Of a stretch of DNA of 42,004 nucleotides, positions 4,205 to 42,004 are shown in pieces (within the stretch, counting starts at the first letter, position 1; each line of letters starts with the position of its first letter). The notes below the pieces were generated by a model. The model was not told the origin of the DNA. It made no database searches and saw only the letters and a list, made by a program, of their open reading frames with translations. Location: contig NKIT01000016.1 of the NCBI GenBank assembly GCA_002256185.1, forward strand, positions 1 to 42,004, written 5' to 3'. A program made the position numbers and the translations under genes. Source of the DNA: Rhodobacteraceae bacterium PARR1 (GTDB lineage: Bacteria > Pseudomonadota > Alphaproteobacteria > Rhodobacterales > Rhodobacteraceae).

Positions 4205-4798
4205 TTAAAGGAAGATCGGTTTGCGGTCGCCTGCTGCGAAGCGGCGCAAGACGGCGGGGTAGAGGCGGTGTTCTTGGGTCAGCACGCGGGCGGCGAGGCT
4301 GTCCGGCGTGTCTTCGGGCAGGATCGGGACAAGCGCTTGGCCAAGGATGGGGCCATCGTCGAGGATTGGTGTGACTTCGTGGACGGTGCAGCCTGCCTGA
4401 GTGTCGCCCGCATCCAAGGCGCGTTGGTGGGTGTGCAGACCAGGGTAGAGTGGCAAGAGCGACGGGTGAATATTCAGCATCCGCCCGGTGAAGCGGTTGA
4501 CGAAATCCGGCGTCAGCACGCGCATGAAGCCCGCGAGGCACAGGATATCGGGCTTTGCGGCAAGGATATGGGTCAGTAGGGCGGCTTCAAAAGCCGCGCG
4601 GTCGCGGCCAAAGGGACGATGATCGACGGCGGCGGTCAGCACCCCTGCGGCGGCGGCTTTCGCCAAGCCGCTGGTGCTGGGGTCGTTGGAGGCCACGAGC
4701 ACGGCTTCCGCCGGGTGATCGCCGCCGCCCATATCGCGCAGAAGTGCGAGCATGTTGGAGCCGCCACCGGAAATCAGGATGGCGACGCGCTTTTTCAC
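4205..4798 (-). CDS. purN: Phosphoribosylglycinamide formyltransferase
   Basis: Transfers a formyl group from 10-formyltetrahydrofolate to GAR in de novo purine synthesis. The 197-residue length is usual. Visible motifs are the N-terminal phosphate-binding loop ISGGGSNM, the catalytic segment LNIHPSLLP (Asn and His), and the Asp of ILDDGPIL. It starts with GTG at 4798, overlapping the purM stop in the sequence GTGA, so translation is coupled to purM. Confidence 0.96.
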
Positions 4799-5832
4799 AA
4801 CAGGTTGCCCTTGTAGATCACGCCCTCACCTTCGACCACGTGGCCAAGGGGGATGACGGTTTCGCCCGCCTCAGCCAGCAGGGCGGTCAGCGCCTCGGCC
4901 CGGTCTGCGGCGACGACAAGGATCATGCCGATGCCGCAGTTGAAGGTTTTCAGAAGTTCAGGCTGCGCCATGTTGGCTTGCGTTGCCATCCAGCGGAACA
5001 CCGGGGGGAGTTGCCATGCGGACAGGTCAATCTCGCAGGCCAGCCCTTCGGGCAGGACGCGGGGCGGGTTTTCGGTCAAGCCCCCGCCGGTGATATGGGC
5101 CAGCGCATGCACGCCGCCCGCGCGGATCGCGGCCAGCGCCTGCTTGACGTAAAGGCGGGTGGGGGCGAGCAACGCCTCACCCAAGGTGCCTTCGGCAAAG
5201 GGGCACGCGGCGTCCCAGCCAAGGCCGGAGAGTTCAACCACCTTGCGCACGAAGCTGTAGCCGTTCGAATGCACGCCATTGGAGGCGAGGCCCAAAAGGA
5301 CATCCCCCGACTGCACACCCGCAGGCAGGTCCGCGCCCCGTTCCATCGCGCCGACGGCGAAACCGGCAAGGTCGAAGTCGCCCTTGTGATACATCCCCGG
5401 CATTTCCGCCGTCTCGCCGCCGATCAGGGCGCAGCCGGATTGTTCGCATCCCAAGGCGATGCCTTCGATGATGCGGGCGGCTTGGTCCACATCCAGCTTG
5501 CCGGTGGCGAAATAGTCCAGAAACAGCAGCGGCTCCGCGCCTTGGCAGACCAGATCGTTGACGCACATGGCAACAAGGTCGATCCCGATGGTGTCGACAT
5601 TACCGGTGTCGATGGCGATGCGCAGCTTGGTGCCGACGCCATCGGTGGCGGCGACGAGGATGGGATCGCTGTAGCCCGCCGCTTTCAGGTCAAACAGCGC
5701 GCCAAAGCCGCCCAAGCCGGACATGGACCCGGCCCGCGTGGTGCGCTTGGCGGCGGGTTTGATCCGTTCGACCAGCGCGTTGCCTGCGTCGATGTCCACG
5801 CCTGCCTGCGCATAGGTAAGGCCATTCGTCAT
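4795..5832 (-). CDS. purM: Phosphoribosylformylglycinamidine cyclo-ligase (AIR synthetase)
   Basis: ATP-dependent ring closure of FGAM to AIR in purine synthesis. The 345-residue product has the AIRS N-terminal domain (with GVGTKL and the conserved [11 protein letters not shown]) and the AIRS C-terminal domain. The ATG at 5832 is chosen because [11 protein letters not shown] is the expected start and GGAG lies 9 nt upstream; the open frame reaches 5883. It is the first gene of a purM-purN operon with a 4-nt overlap. Confidence 0.96.
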
Positions 5833-5920
5833 GGGAAAAGCTCCGCCGCTGGGTCTGGTTTGGGCGCGGCATATACCAGCCATGGCGCTATCGCAACGGC
5901 GGATGGCGCGGCAAAAGCGG

Positions 5921-5949
5921 TTGACGCTTTCGCGCCTGCCGCTTAGGCA
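5921..5949 (+). promoter_or_regulatory. Predicted sigma70 promoter of the CAT tRNA
   Basis: A -35 box TTGACG (5921-5926) and -10 box TAGGCA (5944-5949) are separated by exactly 17 nt. The predicted start is a few bases before the mature tRNA 5' end at 5958. Confidence 0.6.
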
Positions 5950-5957
5950 AAGGGCGG

Positions 5958-6033
5958 GGGGCTGTAGCTCAATGGTTAGAGCCGGGCGCTCATAACGCCT
6001 TGGTTGGGGGTTCGAGTCCCTCCGGCCCTACCA
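5958..6033 (+). tRNA. tRNA with CAT anticodon (Ile2-like, or elongator Met)
   Basis: A complete 76-nt cloverleaf with encoded CCA. The acceptor stem GGGGCTG pairs with CGGCCCT, the D arm is GCTC/GAGC with an 8-nt loop, the anticodon loop is CTCATAA, and the T loop is TTCGAGT. The 8-nt D loop and TTGGT-type variable region resemble the lysidine-modified tRNA-Ile2 of E. coli more than elongator tRNA-Met. It lacks initiator features (1:72 mismatch, GGG:CCC anticodon stem). Its last 13 nt serve as an integration target (see 7099-7111). Confidence 0.9.
6021..6033 (+). repeat. Attachment-site core, left copy (in tRNA 3' end)
   Basis: TCCGGCCCTACCA is the final 13 nt of the tRNA and recurs exactly at 7099-7111. 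Sequence on either side of the two copies differs. A direct repeat of a tRNA 3' end flanking an integrase remnant is the normal signature of site-specific integration. Confidence 0.8.
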
Positions 6034-6118
6034 AACCGACGTAAATGATTGATTTCATTTGCCTCAAGCAGCCCCTCGATGGGTCATGTTTGATCTATGA
6101 CGCTTGGAGACGCGTGAA

Positions 6119-6166
6119 TTTGACGGTATCGCTGACGGTATCGCTGATTCACAGGATACCGTCAAA
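6119..6166. repeat. GACGGTATC direct and inverted repeat cluster
   Basis: TTTGACGGTATC (6119-6130) is followed in tandem by GCTGACGGTATC (6131-6142). GATACCGTCAAA (6155-6166) is the exact reverse complement of the first copy, and it ends 1 bp before the ATG of the integrase remnant. The position suggests an operator or arm-type binding site for a recombinase or repressor. Confidence 0.7.
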
Positions 6167-6167
6167 G

Positions 6168-6290
6168 ATGGCCCTGAAAGAAATTTCAAAACGTTCTGGC
6201 AAATCAGACACAAAACCCAACACTATCACGGATGGAAATGGGTTATCTTTTCTTGCAACACTGAGCGGTTTTAAGTTGTGGGGGGATTGA
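6168..6290 (+). pseudogene. Truncated tyrosine integrase (N-terminal fragment)
   Basis: Only 40 codons remain. After MALKEISKRSGKS, the piece TDGNGLSFLATLSGFKLW aligns by eye with the N-terminal arm-binding domain (DUF4102 type) of phage and island integrases, whose usual pattern is SDGxGLYLLVxPSGxKLWR. The frame ends in GD and a stop directly after the KLW position, so the core-binding and catalytic domains are absent. Its place just downstream of a tRNA matches intact integrases of this class. The frame is open upstream to 6045, but that part is not family-like. Confidence 0.7.
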
Positions 6291-6324
6291 CTATCGGAAC
6301 AGTGGGAAGTGAAAGGGAACTCTT

Positions 6325-6978
6325 ATGAACAAGAAGATAGTGCATCCTGAATTTGCCGAACGGATGGGACAGGCTTGCGAAGGCAATCCGAACATTCCAT
6401 CAAAGAACTACGGTCGATTGCTCTGGTTCAAGGAACAACTGGAAACGCGCTTCGGCACCGTGGTCACGCAAGAGACGGTTCGGAAGTGGTTCGCCGGGGA
6501 AGTGTATCCTCGGAAGCAAAAGTTGATCCAGATCGCACAGATCATGCAAGTTGACGACGCTTGGCTTGCTCTTGGTCGCGCGAACGCGGTGCCCGAGAAG
6601 GAGCGGAAGGTTCAGAACGCCGCTGCCTCTGGGGTGGTCAACCTGATCGCCGGTCTGATCCAGATTTGCGGTGGAACGCCGTCCTTCCCTGACAAGCCGG
6701 GAAAGGTCGATCTGAACGCGATCATCAAGGGTGCGCTCTACAGCTTCAACATCACCACCGGGGTCGAGAAGGATGGTGAAGTTCGTTTCGCCGTGCCGGT
6801 CGATGCTCGGGAAGCGGTGGTGCTTGGGGTGATCTACCTTGGCGATCTGAATTTTCAGGTGTTCGAACTGGACTGGTCTACCATCGAGTCGGTCGGTGAG
6901 CGGAAGTCTGGGCACTGGATCGTGAAACTCTCGGACGCTGATTGGCGGCGGGTGACGACGTTTGCCGAACGGTTGTGA
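6325..6978 (+). CDS. Helix-turn-helix protein of the micro-island, unknown role
   Basis: A 217-residue protein. Residues about 10-90 look like an XRE/phage-repressor type DNA-binding domain: RLLWFKEQLE, then VTQETVRKWFAGEVYPRKQKL as helix-turn-helix and a third helix ending DAWLALG. Residues 120-217 form a separate compact domain I do not recognise, with alternating beta-like stretches (VRFAVPV, AVVLGVIYL, FQVFELDW, HWIVKL). No membrane segment or signal is seen. The ATG follows AAGGGA at 6-7 nt. It is the only intact gene of the island and could be its repressor or a cargo regulator; the GACGGTATC cluster upstream is a candidate binding site (inference). Confidence 0.75.
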   Translation: MNKKIVHPEFAERMGQACEGNPNIPSKNYGRLLWFKEQLETRFGTVVTQETVRKWFAGEVYPRKQKLIQIAQIMQVDDAWLALGRANAVPEKERKVQNAAASGVVNLIAGLIQICGGTPSFPDKPGKVDLNAIIKGALYSFNITTGVEKDGEVRFAVPVDAREAVVLGVIYLGDLNFQVFELDWSTIESVGERKSGHWIVKLSDADWRRVTTFAERL

Positions 6979-7085
6979 GTCTATGTTCTGGCGAACAGTT
7001 ACTTTATCGTATTCGACTTAATGCTTCTCAGATTGACATTATCCGATTGCCGTTATTTCATACATCACCGGGTTGACATTAAAAG

Positions 7086-7988
7086 CTATATCGCCTCATC
7101 CGGCCCTACCACCTGCCGCGTGCCTTCGCGGGCTGAGATATAGACCGCTGACCCGATCAGGATGCAGACGCCAAGGATGGTCCAGCCATCGGGCAGATCG
7201 CCGAAGAACCACCAGCCCAAGACCGTGGCCATGACGATCTCGGTATAGGCCAAGGGCGCGAGGAGTGAGGCTTCGGCGTTTTCATAGGCGCGGGTGATCA
7301 GCAGGTGGCCCAAGGTGGCGATGCTGCCGACAAGCGCAAATTGCGCCCATTGCCAAAGGCTTGGCGCTTGCCAGACGAAGATCACGCCTGCGGTGGTGAG
7401 GATGGCCCCCATCAGACTGGTGTGGAACATCGTCACCACCGGGGTGGTGCGGCCTTTCATCAATCGCGTCACCAGCATGTAGCAGCCAAGGCTGATGCCC
7501 GATCCCAAGGCGAGCCATGATCCGGGGCCAAAGGCCGACAGGCCGGGGCGCAGGATGATCAGCGTGCCGACAAAGCCCACGGCGACGGCGGCCCAGCGGT
7601 TGAGGCCGACCCGCTCTTTCAGGATCAAAGGCGAAAGCGCCGTGACGATCAGCGGTTGAACGAAAAAAATTGCCAAAGCATCGGCGATGGCCATGGTTTT
7701 CAGTGACCAGAAGAACAGGAAGGTCGCAGCGATCAGAAAGCCTGCGCGCAACAGGTGCCACTGCGGGCGGTCCGGGATCAGGCTGCGCGCGCCGCCCTCG
7801 GCCAGCACAAAGGGCAAGGTGAGGACCACGCCAAAGGCCATGCGCGCCCAGACGATCATCAGGATCGGCACGCCCGCCTGACCCAGATACTTCGCCACCA
7901 CATCAAGAAACGGCAACAGCGCCATCGCGGCGATCAGCATCAGCACGCCTTTCAGCGGCGATGTCGGGGGGTGGGTCTGGCCTGTCAT
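7086..7988 (-). CDS. EamA/DMT-family transporter with island-derived C-terminus
   Basis: An inner-membrane drug/metabolite transporter of 300 residues with about ten hydrophobic helices in two EamA repeats (about 12-145 and 155-285). The substrate is not predictable. It starts 9 bp after the LysR stop, so the two are probably co-transcribed; the context with gcdH may hint at an organic-acid substrate. The last four codons (DEAI) and the stop lie left of or across the right att copy (7099-7111) and are therefore largely island DNA. Joining the frame at att to the tRNA would give a different ending, antisense to the tRNA (see findings). Confidence 0.88.
   Translation of the reverse strand: MTGQTHPPTSPLKGVLMLIAAMALLPFLDVVAKYLGQAGVPILMIVWARMAFGVVLTLPFVLAEGGARSLIPDRPQWHLLRAGFLIAATFLFFWSLKTMAIADALAIFFVQPLIVTALSPLILKERVGLNRWAAVAVGFVGTLIILRPGLSAFGPGSWLALGSGISLGCYMLVTRLMKGRTTPVVTMFHTSLMGAILTTAGVIFVWQAPSLWQWAQFALVGSIATLGHLLITRAYENAEASLLAPLAYTEIVMATVLGWWFFGDLPDGWTILGVCILIGSAVYISAREGTRQVVGPDEAI
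7099..7111 (+). repeat. Attachment-site core, right copy (inside transporter gene)
   Basis: An exact 13-nt copy of the tRNA 3' end, TCCGGCCCTACCA. It lies within the 3' codons of the minus-strand transporter gene, covering part of the VVGPD codons. Confidence 0.8.
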
Positions 7989-37590: not shown

Positions 37591-37665
37591 GGCCCGTTCG
37601 TCTATCGGTTAGGACACCTGGTTTTCAACCAGGTAAGAGGGGTTCGACTCCCCTACGGGCTGCCA
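37591..37665 (+). tRNA. tRNA-Glu (TTC anticodon)
   Basis: A 75-nt cloverleaf with encoded CCA. Acceptor GGCCCGT/ACGGGCT, anticodon stem CCTGG/CCAGG around TTTTCAA, and T loop TTCGACT. It is the integration site of the mobile element that follows. Confidence 0.95.
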
Positions 37666-37712: not shown

Positions 37713-37745
37713 GACTAACCTTTCAGAAAGGTTAGTCAGCTTTTG
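37713..37745 (+). terminator. Hairpin between tRNA-Glu and integrase 3' end
   Basis: GACTAACCTTT (37713-37723) pairs with AAAGGTTAGTC (37727-37737), followed on the plus strand by AGCTTTTG. The integrase stop codon lies inside the right arm. It could terminate the tRNA transcript, the integrase transcript, or both. Confidence 0.5.
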
Positions 37746-38775
37746 TTCCTGTAATCTTCCCCAACCTTGCCATTCCGTTGCTCGCCAGTCGCGCTCTGTT
37801 CGCTTTCCGGACATAGATCGCCGCTGTCTTTGTATCCTTGTGCGCGAGAAAACTCGCGATTTCCCATTCCGTCGCTCCCGCCTCGGCAAGCCGCGTCGCA
37901 CCGGACTTGCGCAAACCATGCGCGGACCCTTCTGTGACGCCCGCCGCCATGCACTGATCCTTGAACCAATTGCCTAAGCTCTCGACGGTGTAAGGGCGGC
38001 CTTGGGTATGGGCGAGGAAGATGAACTGGTCGGAAGGCAGACGATCCAACTCAGCTTGCAGTTCCGCCAAAATGGGAAGGTCTGCCGAAACACCGGTCTT
38101 TCCACGTGAATAACGGATGCGGCCATTCACGACGTTTCCCCGACCCATCCGCGCGGCATCCTGTCGTGATGCGCCCGTGCAAAGGAAAATCATCAAGGCA
38201 AGACGTGCCTTTGTGCCAGGACCATGGAAGTCAATAAATCGGCTCACATCTTCCTCGGTCCAGGTATGATAACCATCGGGATTGGTTTTGCGCTTGTATG
38301 CCAACGATGCTGCATCGTTCTTCTTCGAAAGGATGCCTTCGCTCCTCGCAAACTTTAATAGGGCGCTGAGGTTCTTCCTAACTTGATTTGCAGCCGCGGG
38401 TCCGCCTTTACGGCCCATCAGCGCCTCGACATGCTGCTTTTCCAAGCGCGCTGCAGGTAAGGTGCCCGCTTGCTCGTGGAGCCAGTCCAGTTCCCGCCGG
38501 AGGGAGCGCTTGCGGCTGTCAGACAGGTCTGCGTAGCGGGGGCTGGCCAAATAGCTTTTGATCACATGTGCAACGCTGCCCGCCTCAACCTTCGGAGCGG
38601 ACGACTTCCGATGGCCATTCAAAGCGGCGTCATAAGCGGCACGAAATTCGACCGACCCGTAATCTCCGGGCAGATAAACATCAATGCCGTGTCCTTTACG
38701 AAAACGGTAGCGCAGTTTGCCGTGGCGATCAGTCTGGCGACTGACACCGGGAAAGGGGTTCTTGATCCTTGCCAT
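37732..38775 (-). CDS. Tyrosine site-specific integrase
   Basis: A 347-residue recombinase that joins the element to its tRNA-Glu att site. It has an N-terminal arm/core-binding part (about 60-160) and a catalytic domain. Residues: Arg204 in TGASRQDA, Lys226 in RGKTG, His286 and Arg289 in AHGLRKSGATRLAEAG, His312 in LAHKDTKTA and the nucleophile Tyr321 in AIYVRKANR, so all catalytic positions are present. The ATG is 3 bp after the stop of the Xis-type gene, so the two are likely translated together. The gene appears intact, so excision should be possible. Confidence 0.94.
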   Translation of the reverse strand: MARIKNPFPGVSRQTDRHGKLRYRFRKGHGIDVYLPGDYGSVEFRAAYDAALNGHRKSSAPKVEAGSVAHVIKSYLASPRYADLSDSRKRSLRRELDWLHEQAGTLPAARLEKQHVEALMGRKGGPAAANQVRKNLSALLKFARSEGILSKKNDAASLAYKRKTNPDGYHTWTEEDVSRFIDFHGPGTKARLALMIFLCTGASRQDAARMGRGNVVNGRIRYSRGKTGVSADLPILAELQAELDRLPSDQFIFLAHTQGRPYTVESLGNWFKDQCMAAGVTEGSAHGLRKSGATRLAEAGATEWEIASFLAHKDTKTAAIYVRKANRARLASNGMARLGKITGTKAD

Positions 38776-38778
38776 GTG

Positions 38779-39033
38779 TTATCTCAACAGAACATCACAA
38801 GGATTTTCGGCGTCAAACCCTTCGGTAAGGCCTTCAACGGGTAGACCGAATAGGGCTGCATCCAGTTCATTGCGCATCCAAAGCTTGACGGACGGACCAA
38901 GGCGTCGCGGGGGCGGCATTATTCCGTTACGGACTAACTGATCGAAATAGCTAGGACTGACGCCACAGTGCAACGCCGCATCGGCACGGCGAAGTCCGGT
39001 GGGTGCGGTAACAGGTGCGATCTGGCGTGTCAT
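38779..39033 (-). CDS. AlpA/Xis-type DNA-binding protein
   Basis: An 84-residue protein with a winged-helix/MerR-like motif (GLRRADAALHCGVSPSYFDQ, then the wing MPPPRRLGPSVKLW and the closing helix NELDAALFG). Such proteins act as excisionases or as activators of integrase genes. The ATG at 39033 has GGAG 8 nt upstream; the frame is open to 39120. The stop is 3 bp before the integrase ATG, which points to a joint int/xis operon. Confidence 0.85.
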   Translation of the reverse strand: MTRQIAPVTAPTGLRRADAALHCGVSPSYFDQLVRNGIMPPPRRLGPSVKLWMRNELDAALFGLPVEGLTEGFDAENPCDVLLR

Positions 39034-39976
39034 TTCATTCACTCCAAAGCGGCCGCTGAGTCTTTTTGATGTATTGAAGTGTGAAGAAAGGAAGGGGAAA
39101 CCAAAGCGTTCTGACCGCATCCTTCCTCGCGCAGCCTTCCCCTGCCGTGTTGATCGACGTTCTCATTTTCAAACTCAAACCTTTCTCGGCCCAAGGAAAG
39201 CGGTGCGTTCCTCGGGCGCCTTCTTGATTTAGCTGTCTGTTCAGCCTGAGTTGATTATAACAAGAATTGCGAAAATCAGAATGATCGACGAAACCAAAAA
39301 CGCGGTAGTTCGGTAGAAACATGCAAATATTTCTGCAGCTTGGGTAGGATTTTTCTATTGATCTTTTCGCTGGATTTCCACAATGCCGCTATGCTGAGAA
39401 ATTATCCGGATTTTCTCTCCAACGGCCTTTGCATGATGTTCTCTAAATTTCCCAACCGAAAAATCCGGATTATTGACTTTAATGTTGTTTGACCTCCCTC
39501 TGGATCATATCCGGCGAACCAAAGGAGTTGCCGCCGTGCATCCACTAGAGCGTCATCTGACCATCTGTAAGCGTCGAGAAGCCAGTCAGACTGCGGCCTT
39601 CTTTGCCGCAGTCCAACGCAACGACGACCACAAGCCAGAACCGCGGCTTTGGCGAAGTCAAACATCAATGGAAACTTTTCTTCGATGCTTTGTAGATTAT
39701 TTAAGTATAAAAGTCAATAAGTTTCTTGGGAAACCGAGCACGAGCCAAATCGGCTGTTTCGCCATGCGGCTTCCGCGGGCTATGGTCGTAGCTCAATCAC
39801 GCTTTGGATCCGATGAGTGTCCGTTCTCGTTTTTGGTCCTCACCCCTCGACAATCCGTCGTAATCCGCATCCGCTCGTCACATTCGGGGGCACCTATCGA
39901 AGTGCTCGACAACAACTGAGATGGCGCGCGGCCAATGACCAACCAGGCGAGTCCGCGATGGCCCCTCCTCTCCTTT
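39034..39976. other. Gene-poor stretch of the element
   Basis: About 940 bp, richer in A+T, with no gene I can support. A weak 87-codon frame on the minus strand (39665-39402, with DDALVDARRQLLWFAGYDP) has no clear ribosome site or family. An 11-bp inverted repeat ATCCGGATTTT (39404-39414) / AAAATCCGGAT (39460-39470) is the clearest structure. Confidence 0.5.
39404..39470. repeat. Inverted repeat ATCCGGATTTT / AAAATCCGGAT
   Basis: Exact 11-bp arms 45 bp apart in the gene-poor stretch. They could be a regulatory or processing site; function unknown. Confidence 0.5.
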
Positions 39977-42004
39977 TCAAGGATCATAATCGTTGGCATC
40001 TTCTTCAGACACCGCAGCCAGCCATGAGGCGTCGGCTTCAAGGCTTTCGCTGGCCTCGCGGTGCGCAGCGTCGGAGGCATGGCGTCCGCGCTCAACCTCT
40101 TTTGGGACGGCTTCGTTTTTCCCTTCAAGCAGTGCCTTAGCGTTGCCGATAGTTTGGCGCATGTCGTCGACGGGAAGTTTCACACCGATTGCGCTGTCAA
40201 CCAGACGGATCATCCGCTGAAGTTCCTCGTCGCTCTGCTGCCATTTTCCGACAGCGATCCGGTCGGAAAAGAGGGCGATACCGATACCCGGCGCCAGAAA
40301 CATCACCCCCCCATCCACCCGGCGCAACGGGGCGGGGCCATCTTTTGGTGCGAAGTGCGTCAAGGCCAGACCCGCGCGCAGGAGGGCACCCAGAGATGCC
40401 CATGCTACGCTGGACTTTGAAGCACCATCAGAAGCGAGCTGATTTGCCCTTCCAGTTTTTCGATGCTTGCCGCTGATGTTAGAAGAGACCTGCTCATCGT
40501 CTGCAGATCGTCCGTTAAGGCCTGGTGGGCTTTCTTCTGTTCGCCCATTGCTGCCAGAGATTGGTTTTCCTTGTCCAAGAGCATTCCCAGTGCCGCCGCG
40601 ATCCGAGATAGCGCCTCCGCCATTTGCTGCTGCCGCAGAATCGCCTCCTGATCCATTGATGTGAGGCAGTCCTCGAGCCGCTTCACGGCGGGAAGAAGTG
40701 TGTAAATCGCCTGCGTCAGTTCTGCCATCTGCTGAGGCACGGGCGTCGAGTCGGGCATTCAGGGTCTCCAATCTTGTTGCGAGATGTGTGAACCGCTGGA
40801 TGCGGTCGAACGTGATCGCGTTGGCAAGCCGGGATCCGGCAAGGAGAACCCCTGCATGGGTCGTTAGATCGACAAGCCGCCTGGTCAGGTGTCCGATCGC
40901 GGCGGCGGGTCCGACGGGCCCAGAAAGCGCGAGAGCGAGTCGTTCAAGCGTGCCAGACTCCTGCTGTCGCGCGCGATCAATTCCTCCAGCGCTGCGATCC
41001 GCGCTTCCAATCGCTTGTTCCGCTGCTCGGCCCCCGCCAGTTTTGCTTCCAGCGTCGCGATCTGGCCCTGTTGCTGCTGTTCGAGACGGTCCATCATGTC
41101 CAAGAAGCGTTGGTCTAGTTTCGAGAGGTTCATTCGGATTTGGGTCCTTGTTCGAAGTGTTCCGCGACAGCGCCATGACATGATGTTTGCGCGGAAGTAT
41201 GCCGAGGGGGTCAGTCGGGCGCGGATCCAGCAAGGTGCTGAGAGTCCAGACGGGGGCGGGCCAGTTGCCGCGACCATAGCGCGTCCGGTTCCACTCGGCC
41301 CGCTTTGTCCAAGCGGCTTGGAAGCGCTCTAGGGAAGCAGCAAGCGCCGCCGTCCGCGTTCCCTTCGCCAGTGTGAGGGCAGCGGGCTCAAGTCGCGCTG
41401 TGGCCCCATCGAAGGCGGCGGCAAACAGGCGTCCCTGAAGCCGCATCCGGTCCCGGACCAGAGCCTCCGGCCGTCCGATCGTGATCGCATGATCGGTCGT
41501 GACCAAGATGGCCATTCCCCTTGGCGCGAGCCATGGTTCCAGAAGCGCGATGACGTCCTTGCGCGACGTGATCTTCCCGGCCTCGGCCGCCGCCTTGACG
41601 AGCGCGACCGCCTCGTCGCGCAAATCACGCTGCGGAGCGAGGCCAGCTCTGGCTGCCTCGGCCGTGAGTTTTGCCTTCCAATGTGGCGTGGCGACATCAA
41701 GCCTTCGGGCCGGATCCTCGGGATCGGCCCAGCCAAAGGTGTGATTCACGAGATCTCGAAACGCCCGCCAGTAAATGGGAAGCTCACCCTGCGGGATCGG
41801 CGGGTCCGGGTTGTGGCTGTAGGCCCGTTCTGTGGGATAGACAGCCCTCGGGTGCGCGACGTTCACCTCAAGGCGGCCCGTATGAGTATGGGTGGTGACA
41901 TAAGGCATTGGCCGTGACGCAGTCGGTATGCCCGGCCAGAGTGCCTCGAAGAATATCTGGAGGGTGCGGTCGATCTGGCCCCTCAGCAACGGGTCGCCGG
42001 CATT
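39977..42004 (-). CDS. MbeA-like (HEN-type) mobilization relaxase, 5' end outside window
   Basis: At least 675 codons remain open to the right edge; the true start and the catalytic Tyr region lie outside. The visible N-terminal part contains YVTTHTHTGRLEVN (about 41902-41861) with His, Glu and Asn spaced H-x6-E-x-N, as in the HEN motif of the ColE1 relaxase MbeA. A following VAHPRAVYP and conserved helices (WRAFRDLVNHTFGW) fit a relaxase core. The C-terminal half is low-complexity and Gly/Ser/Arg-rich exactly where two other genes are read in the +1 frame. The enzyme would nick oriT and lead the strand into a recipient using another element's secretion system. Confidence 0.8.
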   Translation of the reverse strand, partial: NAGDPLLRGQIDRTLQIFFEALWPGIPTASRPMPYVTTHTHTGRLEVNVAHPRAVYPTERAYSHNPDPPIPQGELPIYWRAFRDLVNHTFGWADPEDPARRLDVATPHWKAKLTAEAARAGLAPQRDLRDEAVALVKAAAEAGKITSRKDVIALLEPWLAPRGMAILVTTDHAITIGRPEALVRDRMRLQGRLFAAAFDGATARLEPAALTLAKGTRTAALAASLERFQAAWTKRAEWNRTRYGRGNWPAPVWTLSTLLDPRPTDPLGILPRKHHVMALSRNTSNKDPNPNEPLETRPTLLGHDGPSRTAATGPDRDAGSKTGGGRAAEQAIGSADRSAGGIDRARQQESGTLERLALALSGPVGPAAAIGHLTRRLVDLTTHAGVLLAGSRLANAITFDRIQRFTHLATRLETLNARLDARASADGRTDAGDLHTSSRREAARGLPHINGSGGDSAAAANGGGAISDRGGTGNALGQGKPISGSNGRTEESPPGLNGRSADDEQVSSNISGKHRKTGRANQLASDGASKSSVAWASLGALLRAGLALTHFAPKDGPAPLRRVDGGVMFLAPGIGIALFSDRIAVGKWQQSDEELQRMIRLVDSAIGVKLPVDDMRQTIGNAKALLEGKNEAVPKEVERGRHASDAAHREASESLEADASWLAAVSEEDANDYDP
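40405..40758 (-). CDS. Nested coiled-coil mobilization accessory protein B (MbeD/MbeB-like)
   Basis: A 117-residue protein wholly inside the relaxase gene, in its +1 frame. The ATG follows GGAG at 7-8 nt. The sequence is almost all helix with heptad-like spacing (MAELTQAIYTLLPAVKRLED, ILRQQQMAEALSRIAAAL, MSRSLLTSAASIEKLEGQI) and a normal mixed composition, while the relaxase frame over the same bases is Gly/Ser-rich (e.g. GGDSAAAANGGGAISDRGG). In ColE1, mbeB and mbeD lie inside mbeA in the same way and help mobilization and plasmid entry. Homology to those proteins is by layout, not shown by alignment. Confidence 0.7.
   Translation of the reverse strand: MPDSTPVPQQMAELTQAIYTLLPAVKRLEDCLTSMDQEAILRQQQMAEALSRIAAALGMLLDKENQSLAAMGEQKKAHQALTDDLQTMSRSLLTSAASIEKLEGQISSLLMVLQSPA
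40885..41133 (-). CDS. Nested coiled-coil mobilization accessory protein A (MbeB/MbeD-like)
   Basis: An 82-residue protein inside the relaxase gene, in the +1 frame and in phase with protein B, whose start is 126 nt further on. The ATG at 41133 follows AAGGA at about 11 nt. The protein is a strong coiled coil (LDQRFLDMMDRLEQQQQGQI, then LEAKLAGAEQRNKRLEARI) ending in a Pro/Ser-rich tail. The open frame extends upstream to 41277 but that part is Arg/Pro-rich and shadow-like, so the ATG at 41133 is taken as the real start. Confidence 0.7.
   Translation of the reverse strand: MNLSKLDQRFLDMMDRLEQQQQGQIATLEAKLAGAEQRNKRLEARIAALEELIARDSRSLARLNDSLSRFLGPSDPPPRSDT

Follow-up and report, generated by a model that had tools for sequence, protein, structure and literature searches.

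The stretch of DNA analysed here, called the window throughout, comprises positions 1 to 42,004 (forward strand) of contig NKIT01000016.1 of Rhodobacteraceae bacterium PARR1. Its end is occupied by the open reading frame (ORF) of an MbeA-like relaxase, within which two smaller frames, designated D1 and N2, are nested. Judging from the sequence, we consider it likely that the relaxase gene serves to mobilize an integrative mobilizable element (IME) and that the two genes nested inside it are accessory genes with a role in the relaxosome. The translation, the partners and the function of D1 and N2 are what we infer from their sequence. The features of the gene are the following.

39977-42004, minus strand: MbeA-like MOBP5(HEN) relaxase, 675 codons seen, open frame running off the contig end
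41861-41890, minus strand: HEN motif III HTHTGRLEVN, with H39, E46 and N48 of the relaxase frame
41145-41149, minus strand: AAGGA, Shine-Dalgarno-like, before D1, ends 11 bases before the ATG
40885-41133, minus strand: nested gene D1, coiled coil, probably MbeD-like, ATG frame of 82 codons, +1 to the relaxase
40766-40769, minus strand: GGAG, Shine-Dalgarno-like, before N2, ends 7 bases before the ATG
40405-40758, minus strand: nested gene N2, family without a name, ATG frame of 117 codons, +1 to the relaxase
39980-40404, minus strand: relaxase C-terminus past the end of N2, free of overlap, weak third-position bias

The coordinates confirm what an initial annotation of the window had reported, namely two same-strand +1 frames of 82 and 117 codons that are in phase with each other and start with ATG behind AAGGA and GGAG. 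Its description of the relaxase frame over the same bases as low-complexity agrees with a G+A+S+P content of 48% and 50% over the two nested genes, as compared to 33% in the catalytic part. The D1 frame is also open further upstream, to an ATG at 41277 (130 amino acids), and the alignment to the relatives begins at the ATG of the 82-residue version.

Frames of this kind could be open by accident due to G+C-rich codon use and a low-complexity linker, in which case there would be no nested genes. Indeed, in 50% of 20,000 synonymous permutations, the +1 frame contains one ATG ORF of at least 117 codons and another of at least 82, and in 16%, neither of the observed spans is interrupted by a stop. 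Since half of the permutations equal it, ORF length was rejected as evidence for nested genes. Moreover, Pfam returned nothing specific on the nested frames. The nested genes are taken as real because of their conservation. A relaxase frame was found in 109 loci and includes the HEN motif in 64 of them, 52 of which are distinct, and 40 of the latter have at least 380 amino acids after the motif. D1 and/or N2 is present in the +1 frame in 39 of these 40 long HEN relaxase loci (N2 in 34, D1 in 23, both in 18), membership having been found with iterated profiles that were built on the same loci. The exception among the long loci is L030, which has no nested gene and extends past the end of its stretch. 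The iterated N2 profile had taken in D1 members, which were removed before the window was scored with held-out profiles. These profiles were built without the window and the loci L034 and L035 from 23 (D1) and 35 (N2) training sequences. They gave the window frames 39.2 bits (D1) and 20.6 bits (N2), whereas the best of 400 synonymous permutations reached 10.4 and 9.4 bits, respectively.

The distribution of nucleotide differences over the codon positions of the relaxase frame also argues against accident. In the catalytic part, 331, 253 and 732 differences fall on relaxase positions 1, 2 and 3 (eight pairs, no locus shared). Under N2, the numbers are 209, 125 and 82 (eight pairs; chi-square p 4e-37) and under D1, they are 80, 40 and 46 (four pairs; chi-square p 5e-12). 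Thus, the position that is free across D1 and N2 is the first of the relaxase codon, corresponding to the third of the nested codon. A comparison of the window with L034 gave 55% identity in the nested frame over D1 as compared to 44% in both the relaxase frame and the unused third frame, and over N2 the respective values are 50%, 26% and 27%. The codon-position shift and the frame identities indicate that the relaxase frame over D1 and N2 shows little constraint beyond that of the nested genes themselves. A first version of the codon-position test, which used relaxase-frame alignments of 17 pairs, revealed a clear shift in most close pairs, no shift in L001-L035, L033-L031 and L057-L062, and a weak or mixed signal in L034-L035, L059-L062, L095-L097 and, over the 130-codon D1, in L001-L034; L046 and L047 are identical over the nested region. 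The failures among distant pairs are taken to be misalignment. The test was redone on nested-frame alignments of ten pairs, eight of which were pooled.

Furthermore, the relaxase frame is open over 58 of 58 nested genes, while 18.9 would be expected from synonymous permutation of the nested codons, a test that leaves out 6 of 64 genes lying outside an intact relaxase and is biased thereby. From these alignments and permutations, it could be shown that both nested frames are conserved as proteins and that an open relaxase frame is maintained over their length. The refuting case named in the initial annotation, close homologues with stops in the +1 frame and conservation only in the relaxase frame, was looked for, and the outcome was the opposite. 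In the relaxase tail downstream of N2, the differences are weakly biased towards the third position (156, 141 and 252 differences at positions 1, 2 and 3; eight pairs pooled). In this picture, the relaxase consists of a catalytic domain and a tail, connected by a free linker that spans D1 and N2.

The start sites point in the same direction. A Shine-Dalgarno core precedes 33 of 38 N2 starts and 18 of 26 D1 starts, as compared to 86 of 828 other ATGs in the nested frame, the start being the ATG nearest to the profile start and chosen blind to the Shine-Dalgarno sequence. A choice of starts favouring Shine-Dalgarno sites gave 21 of 26 (D1) and 34 of 38 (N2) and was set aside for the unguided counts. 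Moreover, N2 is an ordinary gene behind a short relaxase in five loci. In L008, the relaxase frame stops after 469 codons and N2 comes next, overlapping it by 4 bases; N2 lies 42-57 bases behind the short relaxase in L010, L091 and L093; and L071 has a shorter N2-like gene, found by a profile match, that overlaps the short relaxase by 4 bases. N2 can therefore be regarded as a gene in its own right. These five loci belong to the 12 short loci of the sample, of which L045 lies at a contig edge and L007, L058, L061, L074, L076 and L100 look cut or broken. Given the conservation, the codon-position shift, the held-out scores, the Shine-Dalgarno enrichment and the separate N2 genes, accidentally open frames are an extremely improbable explanation, and the proposal that a ColE1-like (HEN) relaxase gene harbours two genuine nested genes for coiled-coil proteins has been corroborated.

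The overlap may also have a direction, which we put forward as a tentative idea with more doubt than confidence. The relaxase might be the newcomer, a short HEN relaxase having grown downstream over its own accessory genes, with a free but open linker where it covers D1 and N2 and a tail under selection behind them. D1 and N2 might then act as a different kind of pilot pair, without a membrane segment, in a large alphaproteobacterial mobilization branch that is for the most part unannotated. Their synthesis directly on the relaxase mRNA would allow the relaxosome to assemble during translation. The 39 natural double-coding modules together with the separate versions provide a set for asking why accessory genes sit inside the relaxase gene and which frame was first.

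The assignment of the relaxase is based on two properties, the motif and the similarity to MbeA. The H, E and N of motif III are invariant in 11 of 11 rows of one alignment (A1) and in 20 of 20 rows of another (A8), the rows having been picked from HEN-bearing loci. The window relaxase carries HEN in motif III and thereby the hallmark of MOBP5(MOBHEN). The replacement of 3H by HEN in motif III marks the MOBHEN group (PMC12857230). The NCBIfam model NF047848 (relax_MbeA_E1) matches the window relaxase with E=4.5e-6 and 26 bits, the curated cut-off being 500, as well as the relaxases of L034 (E=3.4e-11) and L031 (E=8e-12), both below the cut-off; it does not match the relaxase of L032. A BLAST search aligned the L034 relaxase with a Klebsiella pneumoniae relaxase (E=4e-17). 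Sequence similarity to MbeA is thus given by NF047848 below its cut-off and by BLAST of L034. L034 is the closest full-length relative of the window relaxase (45% identity to residues 98-751 of 765). About 100 codons of the 5' end, including the motif I region, lie beyond the contig end, and the relatives carry a Tyr there in at least 90% (Y9 of A8); the missing part was not found on the other contigs of the genome. The catalytic part of L034 was modelled by AlphaFold with a pLDDT of 88.2, and the top 8 Foldseek matches of this model in the PDB are F plasmid TraI, albeit weak (best E 0.009, none below 0.001, TM-score about 0.2). A PDB sequence search with the catalytic profile gave no match. 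In most HEN relatives, the relaxase frame comprises 600-890 codons including the low-complexity stretch.

The relatives of the window relaxase are found in Rhodobacterales and other Alphaproteobacteria. In the family and in the order, relaxase queries matched 28 of 394 and 98 of 390 genomes, respectively, counts that include distant relatives without HEN and for which only the top candidates were scored. Within the genus, 1 of 19 genomes matches, which is the window's own, and the catalytic profile matches 4 of 337 genomes drawn class-wide. A search of species genomes with an alignment query yielded 50 loci, among them loci of Paracoccus, Gemmobacter, Defluviimonas, Martelella, Magnetospirillum and Roseospira; a single-sequence query over genome contigs found no locus. 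D1 occurs without N2 in L041, L043, L049, L052 and L053 (Magnetospirillum, Roseospira and two loci from metagenome-assembled genomes), and N2 occurs without a recognised D1 in Martelella (L054, L055, L057) and others. A NikA-like gene (PF21983) lies directly upstream of the relaxase gene in L031-L033, which belong to 31 of 52 distinct loci with such an upstream gene.

Relaxases of the HEN branch escape Pfam, which returned no match for four of four scanned, the window included. In plasmid pDSM14862_d (NZ_CP084955.1), the HEN relaxase at 4752-6533 (L033) is annotated as a hypothetical protein, and MOB-suite calls the plasmid non-mobilizable. In the Sulfitobacter OXR-9 plasmid NZ_CP139727.1 (L031), the nested genes at 6848-7036 and 7220-7513 are tabled as hypothetical proteins, the annotated start of N2 lying 45 bases later than the preferred start (7175). 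The gene table shown for this record has no relaxase around the nested genes, although the record is typed as MOBP; PLSDB lists the plasmid as incomplete. A survey that scores the mobility of Sulfitobacter by mobQ only would miss such modules (PMC13386836).

D1 is 56-94 amino acids long, apart from one cut member, and begins with LTPMERxLL-like residues. The initial annotation had proposed a search of both products against the Pfam families of MbeB (PF04837) and MbeD (PF04899), and this search remained without a match at E<=0.003 in all 24 D1 and all 38 N2 members. Enterobacterial controls matched PF04899 with 6e-34 and 2e-34, and the library finds the MbeB family there, too. In profile-profile comparisons with hhalign, D1 aligned start to start with ten enterobacterial and Aeromonas MbeD proteins (probability 81) and with 16 MbeD-like proteins of Rhodobacterales (probability 95), while the probability for MbeB was 0.4. 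With the D1 profile, 26 MbeD and MbeD-like proteins were told apart from shuffled controls of preserved heptads at an area under the curve (AUC) of 0.994, the reverse searches giving 0.86-0.88. D1 is thus probably MbeD-like by its sequence. A side observation is a PF04899 match (21.5 bits) in a 646-codon frame on another contig of the same genome (G000:C126).

N2 is 88-131 amino acids long and does not correspond to a named family in the libraries that were searched. The model of N2 consists of two helices (residues 9-32 and 36-114; pLDDT 84.9, pTM 0.47). A 19-residue segment over 1.6 hydropathy is present in 9 of 9 MbeB proteins and in 0 of 38 N2 members. Thus, by any test made, N2 appears to be neither MbeB nor MbeD and would form a coiled-coil family so far seen only at HEN relaxase loci.

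It might be argued that the module is a true ColE1 mob module in which D1 is MbeB or MbeD and N2 is the other, both having diverged past recognition. Frame and place are the same, and the LTPMERxLL of D1 resembles TELEKQLL of MbeD. Moreover, nested MbeD-like genes of 73-112 amino acids are present in 16 loci of a second Rhodobacterales relaxase group (L011-L027 without L020), which lacks the HxxxxxxExN pattern, and an MbeB-like gene (142-187 amino acids) precedes the MbeD-like gene among the loci listed. In this group, L025 matches PF04837 (E 0.0018) and then PF04899 (E 0.0029), both under the cut-offs, and L024 matches neither. However, the order is reversed, with D1 first whereas MbeD is last, N2 has no MbeB-like hydrophobic segment, and besides the low value for D1 and MbeB, hhalign gave N2 probabilities of 0.2, 5 and 0.5 with MbeB, MbeD and the MbeD-like proteins. 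We therefore judge a true ColE1 module to be rather unlikely. The nested proteins could also be unrelated to transfer, for instance regulators that merely travel with the relaxase, since they are generic coiled coils. This is, in our view, very unlikely because the arrangement is the same as that of mbeB and mbeD and because strong N2 matches have been seen only at such relaxase loci: in the 337 class-wide genomes, few of which hold such a relaxase (4 by the catalytic profile), the N2 profile gave the window N2 66.9 bits and ten others 26 bits or less.

The preferred reading of a mobilization gene with two nested accessory genes includes the surroundings of the gene in a genome assembly of 4.09 Mb in 285 contigs. 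The neighbouring features are the following.

37591-37665, plus strand: tRNA-Glu (UUC), likely attachment site, adjoins the integrase
37732-38775, minus strand: tyrosine integrase (PF00589, E=5.3e-13)
38779-39120, minus strand: small helix-turn-helix protein, possible excisionase or regulator (weak helix-turn-helix matches, E 0.04-0.07)

The relaxase gene lies beside a tyrosine integrase at a tRNA-Glu gene, and the module probably belongs to an IME at this tRNA gene. The right end of the element lies beyond the contig. No attR was found; a second copy of the tRNA-Glu end was considered as attR and rejected, as it is a full tRNA gene. The gap between the relaxase and the helix-turn-helix gene contains an inverted repeat with arms of 15 bases (39400-39414 and 39460-39474), which might be an operator or a site for an excisionase. 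On another contig of the genome (G000:C3), the region L131 (4562-5742) carries a second tRNA-Glu and, beside it, an integrase-like frame (4642-5742, minus strand). By eye, the first residues of this frame resemble the window integrase, and further open frames beyond it were taken for phage genes without a search. L131 is probably another element at the other tRNA-Glu.

A mechanism can be envisaged in which one mRNA carries the relaxase frame and ribosomes starting at the internal Shine-Dalgarno sites would produce D1 and N2 from the +1 frame. The relaxase would nick oriT, aided by the ribbon-helix-helix protein that is encoded directly upstream in many relatives. D1 and N2, the latter a predicted coiled-coil protein without a membrane segment, would occupy the place of MbeB and MbeD in ColE1-type plasmids. 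From their position, they may be accessory proteins of the relaxosome, forming a complex with the relaxase and bringing it to the type IV secretion channel of a helper. By analogy with ColE1 MbeD, D1 may also confer exclusion. Entry exclusion has been reported for ColE1 mbeD (PMC2831885), and another paper leaves the exclusion role of MbeD open (PMC11493245).

Several observations weigh against this reading. Both oriT and the 5' end of the relaxase gene are absent from the assembly. A possible helper system is indicated by one VirB4 homologue in the genome (G000:C101:6060-6629; PF03135, E=1.5e-24), and no PF02534 coupling protein was found there; thus, a helper must be assumed. No NikA-like gene was detected at E<=1e-3 in 19 of 49 loci with at least 700 upstream bases. 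The codon-position shift under N2 is missing in the close pairs L062-L065 (4/0/3 differences at nested positions 1/2/3) and L095-L097 (8/3/4), which have few changes. The held-out profiles also give the respective other nested frame 9.7 and 11.0 bits, the latter being the score of the window D1 frame with the N2 profile, and the background of the N2 profile across whole genomes extends up to 26 bits. The proposed homology of N2 between the window clade and the other loci is based on the combination of score, place, frame and the context of the start. The link between D1 and MbeD spans about 25-34 N-terminal columns, and the coiled-coil background is high because hhalign gave a probability of 72 for D1 and N2 and of 44 for the MbeD-like group and MbeD. 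Finally, the window D1 reaches 2.7-13.7 bits with MbeD profiles, which is below the best N2 members (11.0-17.6 bits).

Among the known systems, the mob region of ColE1 (mbeC-mbeA, with mbeB and mbeD inside mbeA), whose relaxase is of the HEN type (PMC12857230), is the obvious relative. Both have an MbeA-like relaxase and two same-strand +1 nested genes, one of which is probably MbeD-like in the window, and many relatives of the window also have a small upstream accessory gene. In contrast to ColE1, the probably MbeD-like gene comes first in the window, the second nested gene is N2 and not mbeB, the relaxase has mostly 600-890 codons with a low-complexity stretch, and an integrase adjoins in the window. 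The initial suggestion that the arrangement equals that of mbeB and mbeD in ColE1-family plasmids holds for the frame, as the coordinates of three enterobacterial ColE1-type plasmids (L114-L116) place both genes in the +1 frame of the relaxase; it is not supported for the identity of the genes, of which only D1 points to MbeD. The idea of a possibly undescribed branch has to be narrowed as well. Already in 2013, MOBP5(MOBHEN) modules with overlapping mobA, mobB and mobC were described for the Paracoccus plasmids pMARC2 and pAES4 and likened to MobA/B/C of Aeromonas pAsal2 (PMC3832669). These modules share with the window the alphaproteobacterial host, the MOBHEN relaxase and the overlapping ORFs; they differ in that the part of the description compared mentions no second nested gene and no N2. 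MOBHEN relaxases or modules are also mentioned for Paracoccus yeei pYEE6 (PMC6209633) and for Psychrobacter, there with long relaxases and four ORFs (PMC3632715). The available part of a review on IMEs lists MobP, MobQ, MobV and MobC elements and notes no HEN element (PMC5704250). A description of the D1 and N2 branch was not found in the open-licence literature. The second Rhodobacterales relaxase group resembles the window by its +1 nested genes in an MbeA-related relaxase and by the bacterial family, and differs by a relaxase without the HEN pattern, an MbeB-like gene in first place among the loci listed and the lack of N2. In conclusion, the module with D1 and N2 is a mobilization gene like that of ColE1 except for one of its nested partners, and it joins overlapping MOBHEN modules that have already been published.

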